NCBI GenBank assembly: GCA_903844785.1
Contig: CAIMVB010000139.1
Span: forward strand, 1 to 13,989
Direction: 5' to 3'
Length of the DNA stretch: 13,989 bases
Origin: an uncultured Rhodospirillales bacterium
GTDB taxonomy: Bacteria; Pseudomonadota; Alphaproteobacteria; Acetobacterales; Acetobacteraceae
The position numbers and the translations under genes were made by a program. Below are positions 11,478-13,989 of the stretch, piece after piece. Each line of letters begins with the position of its first letter. Within the stretch, counting starts at the first letter, position 1. The notes under the pieces were generated by a model. That model had not been told where the DNA came from. It worked only from the letters and a program-made list of their open reading frames with translations, and ran no database searches.

Positions 11478-13130
11478 TTACTTAACCACCGCAACGCGCA
11501 AGGCATTCGTGGTCCCCGGCGTCCCAAAGGGCACGCCGGCGGTTACCACCACCTCATCCCCGCTTTTGGCGAAGCCTTCATGCTGGGCGGCGCGGGTGGC
11601 GCGCGCGACCATCTCTGTCATCGAATGGATTTCATTCACCTCCAGCGGATGCACGCCCCAGATCAGCGCCATGCGCCGCGCCACACCTGCACTCGTGGTC
11701 AGGCCCAGGATCGGGCAATGCGGCCGCTCACGCGCTACGCGGAGCGTGGTGGACCCGGTGGAACTGAAGGTCGCAATCACCTCCGCCTCAATGGTCTCGG
11801 CCACCTGGCGTGCGGCGGTGGCGATAGCCCCGGCGCTGGAATGTTCCGGGCCTGGGCGCGCGGCATCTGTCAGGCGGCGCCAGTCTGAGTCCTGTTCCAC
11901 GCGCGCCACAATGCGGTCCATCATATTCACGGCTTCATAAGGGTATTGCCCGGCGGCGGTCTCAGCCGAGAGCATCACCGCATCCGCGCCATCAAAAACG
12001 GCGGTGCCGACATCGGAAACCTCGGCCCGCGTTGGGCTTGGCGCGGTGATCATGCTTTCCAGCATTTGCGTCGCCACTACGACAGGTTTGCCGAGGGCAC
12101 GCGCCGTGCGCACGATGCGTTTTTGCGCAAGTGGCACTTCTTCCGGCGGCAATTCCACGCCCAAATCACCGCGCGCCACCATGACGCAATCCGTCAGCGC
12201 CATGATTTCATCCAGGTTTTCCAAGGCCTGCGGCTTTTCCAGCTTCACCATGATCCAGGCCCGCCCGGCGGCGATCTCCTTGGCCTCCGCCACATCTTCC
12301 GGGCGCTGCACAAAAGACAGCCCGATATATTCAATGCCTTTATCCAGCACGAAGGCGAGGTCCGCGCGGTCCTTTTCCGTCAGGGCTGGGATGGGCAGCA
12401 CCACATCGGGCACATTCACGCCCTTGCGGTCAGAGAGCGGGCCGCCGACCACCACCTGGGTTTCCAGATGATCCGGGCGCTTATGCGTCACGCGTAGCCT
12501 GAGTTTGCCATCATCCAGCAGCAGCGAAGTGCCAATCTGGGCGGCGGCGATGATTTCCGGGTGCGGCAGATTGACGCGGCGGGCATCGCCCGGCGTGGGG
12601 TTGAGATCGAGCCGAAAGCTCTGGCCGGTTTGCAACTGCACCCGCCCGGCCTGGAAGCGCCCGACGCGGAGCTTCGGCCCCTGCACATCGGCCAGAATGC
12701 CGATGGGCCGGCCCACCTTGGCTTCCACAGCGCGGATGGTGGCAATGCGTGCGGCATGATCCTCATGGCTGCCATGGGAAAAGTTAAGGCGGAAAATATC
12801 TGCGCCGGCGCGATGCAGGCGTTCGATCATCTCGGCGCTGCTGCTGGCGGGGCCAAGCGTTGCGATGATTTTGGTGCGGCGCCGGCGGCGCAGAACGGGG
12901 CGGGCCACCATGCGAGGCGCTCCTTGAGGTTGGTAAGATGGCGGAGCTGGGGCCAAATCAGGCCGCAGGCTTTCCGGCGGTAAGTTCAGCAGAGTGGCGA
13001 TTTCCGCCACGCGATCTTCCGGGATGCGCTTCCATTGGGAAACGGCGGCGGTGGAAATGCCAAGCCCGGCGGCGATCTGCTTGACCGTGCCGCGCCGGGC
13101 GAGGAGGGCTTCAAGGGCTGGGTCGCGCAT
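11478..13130 (-). CDS. pyk: Pyruvate kinase fused to an N-terminal YdaS/Cro-like HTH domain
   Basis: The 550-residue protein joins two domains. Residues 1-58 form a small helix-turn-helix of the YdaS/Cro type (TVKQIAAGLGISTAAVSQWKRIP, then ERVAEI-like and LRPDL segments). A Pro-rich linker (60-73) follows. A complete pyruvate kinase begins near residue 84 (RRTKIIATLGPASSS) and converts PEP plus ADP to pyruvate plus ATP. Catalytic features are present: RLNFSHG (Arg114, Asn116, Ser118), VKLEKP (Lys297, Glu299), MVARGDLGVE (Asp322), ATQMLESM (Thr354), PTRAEVSDV and MLSAETAAG. DVQGPKLR has Lys153 where K+-dependent enzymes have Glu, which predicts a K+-independent enzyme. ATG 13130 is used because the HTH begins at once and stops lie upstream. 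The start at Met74 would give an ordinary kinase. Glycerate kinase lies upstream, as in ttuD-ttuE. Confidence 0.95.
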   Translation of the reverse strand: MRDPALEALLARRGTVKQIAAGLGISTAAVSQWKRIPEDRVAEIATLLNLPPESLRPDLAPAPPSYQPQGAPRMVARPVLRRRRRTKIIATLGPASSSAEMIERLHRAGADIFRLNFSHGSHEDHAARIATIRAVEAKVGRPIGILADVQGPKLRVGRFQAGRVQLQTGQSFRLDLNPTPGDARRVNLPHPEIIAAAQIGTSLLLDDGKLRLRVTHKRPDHLETQVVVGGPLSDRKGVNVPDVVLPIPALTEKDRADLAFVLDKGIEYIGLSFVQRPEDVAEAKEIAAGRAWIMVKLEKPQALENLDEIMALTDCVMVARGDLGVELPPEEVPLAQKRIVRTARALGKPVVVATQMLESMITAPSPTRAEVSDVGTAVFDGADAVMLSAETAAGQYPYEAVNMMDRIVARVEQDSDWRRLTDAARPGPEHSSAGAIATAARQVAETIEAEVIATFSSTGSTTLRVARERPHCPILGLTTSAGVARRMALIWGVHPLEVNEIHSMTEMVARATRAAQHEGFAKSGDEVVVTAGVPFGTPGTTNALRVAVVK

Positions 13131-13136
13131 GGCAGT

Positions 13137-13142
13137 ATCTTA
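13137..13142 (-). promoter_or_regulatory. Possible -10 box implying a leaderless pyk mRNA
   Basis: On the minus strand TAAGAT (four of six matches to TATAAT) is followed by ACTGCC and then the ATG at 13130, which would put the transcript start at or near the A of the ATG. No Shine-Dalgarno sequence precedes this ATG, which agrees with a leaderless message. No convincing -35 box is seen. Confidence 0.25.
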
Positions 13143-13148
13143 GCAAAA

Positions 13149-13158
13149 TTAAGCTTAA
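13149..13158. promoter_or_regulatory. Palindrome 1 upstream of the HTH-pyruvate kinase
   Basis: TTAAGCTTAA is a perfect 10-bp palindrome, 19 bases upstream of the pyk ATG. It is made of TTAAG and CTTAA half-sites that recur in the second palindrome at 13181-13200. The position, next to or just upstream of the likely promoter, suits an operator. Confidence 0.45.
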
Positions 13159-13180: not shown

Positions 13181-13200
13181 CTTAATTTTTAAAAGTTAAG
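13181..13200. promoter_or_regulatory. Palindrome 2 between glycerate kinase and pyruvate kinase
   Basis: CTTAATTTTTAAAAGTTAAG is a 20-bp palindrome with one mismatched pair. It carries outward CTTAA and TTAAG half-sites and overlaps the stop codon of the glycerate kinase gene. The segment AAAAGTTAAGCT (13191-13202) is a near-direct repeat of AAAATTAAGCT (13146-13156). Being made of A/T pairs it would be a poor terminator hairpin, so an operator is the better reading. Confidence 0.45.
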
Positions 13201-13989
13201 CTACCAGCAGCGCACGAAAATCATTCACATTGGTCAGCGTCGGGCCCGTCACCACCAAATCACCCAGAAGCTGGAACAGGCTGTAGCTATCATGCCCGGC
13301 CAGCAAGGCACGGGGATCAAGCCCGGCGGCGCGGGCGCGGGCAAGTGTATCCGGGGCGGCGATGGCGCCGGCGTTATCCTCAGACCCGTCAATGCCATCC
13401 GTATCGCCCATCAACGCCCACACCTTGTGCGCCCCGGCCAAGGCAAGCGCGCAGCCCAGCAGGCATTCCCCATTGCGCCCGCCGCGCCCGGGCTTGGGGT
13501 TGCGGATGGTCACGGTGGTTTCCCCGCCAGAGAGCAAAATGGCGGGGCCGGGCAGGGGGTGGCCATGGGTTGCGGCGGAACGGGCCATGCCGGCCAAGGC
13601 GGTACCCAGTTCTCGCGCCTCGCCCTCCAAGGCATCCCCCAGGATCAGCGGGGTCAGGCCAAGCCCGCGTGCGGCGGTGGCGGCGGCTTCAAGCGCCATG
13701 GCGGGGGTGGCGATGAAGCGGTAATCCGGCGAACCAAGCCGGGGGTCGCCGGGCTTCGGGCTTTCTTCCAAGCCTGCCGCCAAATGTGCCTGCACGGCTT
13801 CCGGCAGCTTCATCCCGAAATGCGCCACCAAGGCGCGGGCATCGGCGAAGCTGGACGGGTCCGGCACGGTGGGGCCGGAGGCAATCACACTCGGGTCATC
13901 CCCCGGCACATCGGAAATAGCGAGGGTCACCACCCGCGCCGGATGCGCGGCAGCGGCCAGCCGCCCGCCGGAAAAGGCGGAAAGATGTC
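13196..13989 (-). CDS. ttuD: Class II glycerate kinase / TtuD-like (MOFRL family), 3' part
   Basis: The last 263 residues of a GckA/TtuD-family protein; the start lies beyond the right edge, and the family is usually a little over 400 residues. The first residues visible, HLSAFSGGRLAAAAHPARV, continue into SDVPGDDPSVIASGPTVPD, a hallmark of the family. The C-terminal MOFRL domain shows LLSGGETTVTI, GRGGRNGE, DTDGIDGSEDNAGA and the terminal GPTLTNVNDFRALLV. Members phosphorylate D-glycerate, commonly to 2-phosphoglycerate; some are annotated as hydroxypyruvate reductase (ttuD) from tartrate-use loci. It lies 65 bases upstream of pyruvate kinase on the same strand, so its product could flow through enolase to PEP and into that enzyme. 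GTG 13933 is an internal codon, not the start. Confidence 0.93.
   Translation of the reverse strand, partial: HLSAFSGGRLAAAAHPARVVTLAISDVPGDDPSVIASGPTVPDPSSFADARALVAHFGMKLPEAVQAHLAAGLEESPKPGDPRLGSPDYRFIATPAMALEAAATAARGLGLTPLILGDALEGEARELGTALAGMARSAATHGHPLPGPAILLSGGETTVTIRNPKPGRGGRNGECLLGCALALAGAHKVWALMGDTDGIDGSEDNAGAIAAPDTLARARAAGLDPRALLAGHDSYSLFQLLGDLVVTGPTLTNVNDFRALLVA

Follow-up and report, generated by a model that had tools for sequence, protein, structure and literature searches.

Why should a pyruvate kinase begin with a DNA-binding domain, and does that domain act on the gene that encodes it? The question is raised by a minus-strand open reading frame at positions 11478–13130 of the stretch of DNA analysed here (13,989 nucleotides, termed the window), which encodes a protein of 550 amino acids. 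The original prediction had recognized this frame, leaving its strand unstated, as a helix-turn-helix (HTH) domain joined to a pyruvate kinase (PK), and had suggested that the enzyme may couple metabolite state to transcription, perhaps of its own operon. The frame is confirmed here as encoding a P22-Cro-type HTH, a variable linker and a PK, and control of its own gene by this HTH-PK is strongly supported by comparison of upstream sequences.

The fused gene and its distribution

The genes and domains discussed below are as follows.

11478–13130, minus strand: HTH-pyruvate kinase gene, 550 aa (ATG at 13130, stop at 11478–11480; open reading frame list, Pfam and NCBIfam)
12957–13130, minus strand: N-terminal HTH region, residues 1–58 (Pfam P22_Cro match at residues 13–44)
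12882–12956, minus strand: variable linker, approximately residues 59–83, Pro-rich and then an Arg run (alignments and dN/dS)
11928–12881, minus strand: PK barrel domain, residues 84–401 (PF00224)
11493–11828, minus strand: PK C-terminal domain (PK_C), residues 435–546 (PF02887)
13196–13933, minus strand: upstream gene, 3′ part, glycerate kinase type (DUF4147-MOFRL; Pfam and NCBIfam)

Because its DUF4147 match is partial, we take the upstream gene to be incomplete in the window, and it probably continues beyond the window end.

Both Pfam PK domains score above their cut-offs (barrel, 375.8 bits; C-terminal domain, 125.5 bits), and NCBIfam identifies residues 81–549 as pyruvate kinase (PRK06247, 699 bits against a cut-off of 623). 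For the PK part the closest entries are 7oo1 and 7ueh. Residues R114, N116, S118, D148, K296, E298, D322 and T354, which we take to be catalytic by correspondence to rabbit PK, are among the invariant columns of 45 aligned sequences; the claim of a PK with its catalytic motifs is thereby borne out. This protein is the sole PK match in its own genome, which is ∼92% complete.

The HTH had been called YdaS/Cro-like, which was right in kind, although P22 Cro is the better name. The P22_Cro match (PF14549) reaches 31.3 bits, barely above the Pfam gathering cut-off of 30.2, and the nearest solved relatives by sequence in the PDB are P22 Cro (1rzs, E 5.6e-4) and another Cro (3bd1, 7.6e-4). Membership of the YdaS toxin family was rejected, the Pfam YdaS_toxin score being 21.6 bits, below the cut-off of 30. 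The NCBIfam model carph-isopro (NF046037) gives the PK HTH 17.2 bits, below its cut-off of 38. Whereas P22 Cro is a stand-alone phage repressor, of 61 aa in 1rzs, here the HTH heads a metabolic enzyme.

The architecture is also found elsewhere: all 63 proteins matching residues 1–80 carry both P22_Cro and PK, the candidates being only proteins of 0.55–1.75 times the query length. A PK match (E up to 1e-120) is present in 280 of 299 genomes of the family Acetobacteraceae, and in at least 44 of those 280 it starts at residue 1, that is, with the HTH; in a separate set of 119 genomes, no member of another family has a PK match starting at residue 1. When an HTH alignment was used to scan one genome per species, 86 relatives were found, and in 79 of the best 80 loci the HTH runs into a PK, the exception, as read, being L251. 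By record title these HTH loci belong to Roseomonas, Neoroseomonas, Falsiroseomonas, Plastoroseomonas, Pararoseomonas, Paeniroseomonas, Belnapia, Siccirubricoccus, Roseococcus, Humitalea, Rubritepida and Craurococcus, with some MAGs under broader or other names.

On a tree of 84 PK-core sequences, all 47 rows with the HTH (HTH+) fall in one clade of 50 (support 100/100), whose remaining three rows (L080, L082 and L083) lack it (HTH-); more HTH- relatives occur in genera that also have HTH+ members (e.g. g4 and g93). The minimum number of HTH+/HTH- label changes on this tree is four, a figure that fits one gain of the HTH with later losses, although L082 may branch at the base.

Pairwise dN/dS (Nei–Gojobori, three groups) is 0.12, 0.23 and 0.27 for residues 2–58 of the HTH, 0.51, 0.45 and 0.71 for the linker (residues 59–79) and 0.035, 0.12 and 0.22 for the PK, in the same three groups. 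The HTH is under purifying selection, looser than that on the PK, and the linker changes much faster. The recognition helix, assigned by homology to residues S26–W33, does not vary among the 45 aligned proteins; in wider sets S26 and T27 do. Loss of HTH residues in close relatives, which the original prediction had named as evidence against itself, did not turn up: the residues are kept under selection within the clade, although some relatives have lost the whole domain.

The fusion is real. A chance frame or an over-extended start was rejected since the HTH is conserved and under selection and the spacing of the upstream sites (below) is fixed relative to the upstream ATG. Nor do the orthologues all start at the equivalent of Met74, a second outcome that would have counted against the original prediction; such an internal start was rejected as a general one, several orthologues having no Met at that place.

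Two side observations concern duplication. In L101, L123 and L207 the start of the HTH-PK is doubled (MRDPSLRDPALE), apparently a small in-frame duplication, and a C-terminal PK fragment lies ∼3 kb from the HTH-pyk gene at G001:C1:710439-710900, possibly a partial duplication.

Operator-like sites upstream of pyk

Comparison of upstream regions side by side revealed a 15-bp inverted repeat, CTTA-N7-TAAG, that ends 8–9 bp before the pyk start codon, usually with a second copy 41–42 bp further upstream. The window has both, within the 65-bp gap that follows the glycerate-kinase-type gene.

13139–13153, no strand: proximal operator-like site, an exact match to CTTA-N7-TAAG, with 8 bp between its end and the ATG
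13181–13195, no strand: distal operator-like site, CTTA-N7-TAAG with one mismatch, 42 bp upstream of the proximal site and adjoining the stop codon of the upstream gene

The operators of P22 also read as TTAA-N7-TTAA.

HTH+ and HTH- loci were compared after duplicate removal, with the start codons of HTH- genes guessed by rule. Exact sites, counted up to 200 bp upstream, are present in 63 of 70 distinct HTH+ loci, a set that includes the loci on which the motif was defined, and in none of the 67 HTH- loci. Tolerating one mismatch raises these figures to 68/70 and 2/67. As the loci are related by descent, none of these are counts of independent trials. Shuffled HTH+ upstream regions give 0.2% for exact sites and 2.9% for one mismatch. 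Of 31 HTH+ loci that were first parsed after the motif had been defined, repeat copies of earlier genes among them, 25 carry an exact site; the count rises to 29 when a single mismatch is allowed. Omitted from the comparison were L051-L058 and L067, which are not PK genes or are a fragment; the rows L040, L061, L063, L066, L167 and L177 were unparsed, and L072 was added later.

The proximal site is exact in 59 of the 70 HTH+ loci and within one mismatch in 66, the distal site in 30 and 49, respectively, so that 21 loci have no distal site within one mismatch. Where both sites occur with at most one mismatch, they are 41–42 bp apart in 38 of 47 loci and 37–40 bp apart in some others. The named-genome set (the best 80 of 86 loci, overlapping the 70-locus set) has an exact proximal site in 66/80, with L207, whose start was misassigned, scored as a miss, an exact distal site in 45/80 and a spacing of 41–42 bp in 47/59.

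In line with this pattern, no CTTA-N7-TAAG sites were found upstream of L080, L082 and L083, the HTH- rows inside the HTH+ clade. The exceptions, all HTH+, are of several kinds. One genus (L077, L139, L141, L144 and L146) combines an altered HTH start, RRGTGAKIA, with degenerate proximal sites, which may reflect co-evolution or a loss in progress. L079 has only the distal site and L148, by eye, a shortened proximal repeat; several genera, including Belnapia and Siccirubricoccus, have no clear distal site.

A blind search of 299 genomes for two exact sites 20–32 bp apart found the double site in 14 genomes, at one place each, and the reversed-pattern control found none. All 14 places lie 8–9 bp before the ATG of an HTH-PK gene, seven of them in genomes not examined before; all 14 genomes are among the at least 44 that are HTH+, the others of which have no exact pair.

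The sites might instead be bound by another regulator, with the PK HTH a passenger or serving some other purpose. This would be compatible with the fact that the HTH is connected to the sites through co-occurrence, but exact sites are restricted to HTH+ loci, they are missing from the HTH- rows of the clade, and a different word precedes the genes in which an HTH is fused to CarA (below); we consider such a regulator very improbable.

Single exact sites, counted in 25 whole HTH+ genomes, are rare. Of 84 in all, 42 lie before pyk (9/18 and 33/66, by coordinates). In this single-site search the reversed-pattern control was commoner than CTTA-N7-TAAG (5–43 per genome), and that control therefore says nothing for the pattern; the reversed word has a different composition order. 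The 42 exact sites elsewhere could mean that several genes are under HTH-PK control, or that the HTH anchors the enzyme to DNA on a broader scale. Of the seven that were inspected, two (L110 and L119) seem to fall between genes, ahead of other reading frames, L119 only ∼20 bp before a frame that by eye is amidase-like, and are possible further targets in single genomes; the other five (L105, L106, L107, L108 and L118), however, are inside long coding frames, and we think wider control of this sort quite unlikely.

Probable control of pyk by its own product

The explanation that we favour, with good confidence, is that a PK with intact catalytic motifs doubles as a transcription factor of its own gene, most likely as an autorepressor. 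The P22-Cro-like HTHs would pair up within the PK oligomer, which would supply dimerisation. As co-occurrence suggests, and as is expected of a Cro-type dimer, the paired HTH would bind one or two CTTA-N7-TAAG sites in the short interval ahead of pyk. Binding at the proximal site would most likely repress pyk, because that site ends so close to the start codon, in what is likely the core promoter or start region. The level of PK would then be held steady by its own amount, and ligands that alter the PK tetramer may, more speculatively, tune this autoregulation.

A scan for sigma-70 promoters and terminators around the pyk start of the window gave no match, and for this reason repression, rather than activation, is something that we infer. 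HTH-PK might instead activate pyk through the distal site, whose centre is near -58 from the ATG, or might act by covering the translation start region, before which no conserved Shine-Dalgarno sequence is evident by eye. Both proposals are unlikely, given that the proximal site is the better conserved (59/70 exact, against 30/70 for the distal site) and is nearest the start. Since no conserved ribosome site is visible upstream of the start codon, a leaderless pyk message is possible.

The autorepressor could also engage both sites at once. DNA has 10.5 bp per turn; the usual spacing of 41–42 bp is close to four turns and would fit a tetramer that bridges two operators, although bridging of both sites by one PK tetramer is speculative. 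Moreover, 21 of the 70 HTH+ loci show no distal site within one mismatch that could be bridged. Same-face phasing was rejected as proof of it: pairs before CarA are 38–39 bp apart and some pyk pairs 37–40 bp, and phasing alone therefore proves nothing.

The first half of what had been proposed, control of the enzyme's own transcription, thus has strong support from the exact sites of HTH+ loci and the 14 blind double sites. In the other half, metabolite sensing, HTH-PK would be a metabolite-gated trigger enzyme whose oligomer either catalyses or binds DNA depending on PEP, ADP, AMP or sugar phosphates, and the pyk promoter would thereby respond to flux. This extends the autorepressor reading and is not its opposite; we regard it as possible, with rather less than an even chance. 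The same operator evidence (63/70 against 0/67 loci, and 14/14 places) counts in its favour, and PK enzymes are commonly allosteric tetramers. The linker, on the other hand, is long and evolves fast, which speaks against rigid allosteric coupling.

It is established that some enzymes double as gene regulators, and HTH-PK would be a further one, of the autoregulatory kind. The folds and DNA-binding domains of PutA and BirA differ from those of HTH-PK. In each of these two proteins one polypeptide is both enzyme and transcriptional repressor (PMC6978683), which counts in favour of the trigger-enzyme reading; they are, however, other enzymes acting on other operons, and neither is a pyruvate kinase. 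BzdR is alike in linking an XRE-type HTH to a kinase fold: an HTH-XRE domain is joined by a linker to a shikimate-kinase-like domain that binds an effector and whose enzyme activity, in the authors' model, has been lost (PMC3602430). In contrast, HTH-PK keeps the PK motifs and is the only PK match in its genome. A literature search covering mainly non-subscription papers found no report of an HTH-pyruvate kinase.

If the autorepressor reading is true, few loops between metabolism and transcription could be shorter than that formed by a central glycolytic enzyme reading its own operator. Matched natural experiments are at hand in relatives that have or lack the HTH, and that have or lack the sites.

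Other enzymes with an N-terminal HTH

A P22_Cro search of 289 genomes of the class gave a match in 40, above the cut-off in 10, and led to other HTH fusions: with CarA (in the genome of the window too), with TorD-like chaperones, with crotonyl-CoA carboxylase/reductase and with an NAD(P)H-hydrate epimerase-type protein. These partner names are from NCBIfam, the TorD match being below the cut-off of that model. Against the carph-isopro cut-off of 38 bits, the CarA fusion scores 66.7 and the crotonyl-CoA carboxylase/reductase fusion 57.0, whereas the TorD and epimerase-type fusions are not above it. The enzymes of the carph-isopro group thus resemble HTH-PK in having an N-terminal HTH on a metabolic enzyme, and CarA also has paired 15-bp repeats, but the PK HTH itself scores below the cut-off. 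The name ‘carph-isopro’ was not found in the papers searched.

Perfect 4-base inverted repeats were counted by spacer, 42 of 47 CarA and 19 of 28 TorD loci being kept. Repeats with spacer 7 occur in 66/69 HTH+ loci for PK (25 when shuffled), 32/32 for CarA (12.7) and 5/5 for TorD (1.9), and in 39/67 HTH- loci for PK (26.5, a mild excess), 4/10 for CarA (4.3) and 6/14 for TorD (5.3). Other spacers are also raised in the PK HTH+ loci, spacer 12 for example being found in 50/69 (23.7 shuffled), below spacer 7. A unique N7 peak in every HTH+ set was rejected: spacer 7 is the top spacer for PK only and is equalled by spacer 5 in CarA and TorD, a tie that longer, nested arms would produce.

Each HTH+ set has its own word, the exact words having been chosen after the sequences were seen. 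CTTA-N7-TAAG is found in 62/69 PK loci, GGGA-N7-TCCC, with the same 4+7+4 layout as the PK sites, in 32/32 CarA loci and ATAG-N7-CTAT in 5/5 TorD loci, and each is absent from all the other PK, CarA and TorD sets.

For CarA the parallel to PK is strong. The repeat is paired in 31 of the 32 HTH+ loci, nearly all from the genus of the window, with the copies 38–39 bp apart. A blind search for the pair (spacer 23–24) found it in 34 of 120 genomes, at one place each; the reversed control gave nine places, all in one genome (G048). Thirty of the 34 places were inspected, and all 30 precede an HTH frame and then CarA, the two being in different frames in L421. Genes for HTH-CarA with paired repeats before the start were seen at L279/L281 (G000:C117), L281-L310 and L405-L434, in many genera of the family.

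The parallel is partial for TorD. The word ATAG-N7-CTAT precedes L311-L315 (the same genes as L268, L269, L274, L275 and L278), and no such word was found within one mismatch at three further HTH-TorD genes (L056, L277 and L316), whose HTH sequences also differ; it was rejected as a general rule, being present in only five of the eight HTH-TorD genes read. Crotonyl-CoA carboxylase/reductase with an N-terminal HTH was observed at L271 and L272, of which L271 is above the carph-isopro cut-off. No common N7 repeat was found upstream of these two genes.

Together these sequences point to a broader class of enzymes, each equipped with a domain that reads its own operator. We tentatively propose a class of ‘self-operator enzymes’ in the Alphaproteobacteria, an idea with a substantial chance of being right, if somewhat short of even, in which a Cro/YdaS-like HTH is carried by PK, by CarA, by some TorD and possibly by crotonyl-CoA carboxylase/reductase and an NAD(P)H-hydrate repair enzyme. 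Each would read its own 15-bp word of 4+7+4 layout before its own gene; the oligomer would span paired operators and report its own abundance and ligand state to the promoter, with no separate regulator. The proposal is weakened by the three HTH-TorD genes that have no TorD word and by the two reductase genes that have no common repeat. The operator geometry common to PK and CarA is the part furthest from anything that we know to have been described. That CarA and some TorD genes show a parallel arrangement suggests that bacteria have a more general route to building feedback into an enzyme, and the differing half-site words could help to work out the DNA-reading code of the recognition helix in this HTH family.

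Two minor observations concern fusions of other kinds. L263 joins a P22_Cro HTH to the NAD(P)H-hydrate epimerase-type protein; this fusion was seen in one of the 58 genomes searched and has, by eye, two GTAA-N7-TTAC-like repeats upstream. In L273 and L276 the HTH is fused to a long protein that, by eye, is acidic or coiled-coil and possibly membrane-bound.
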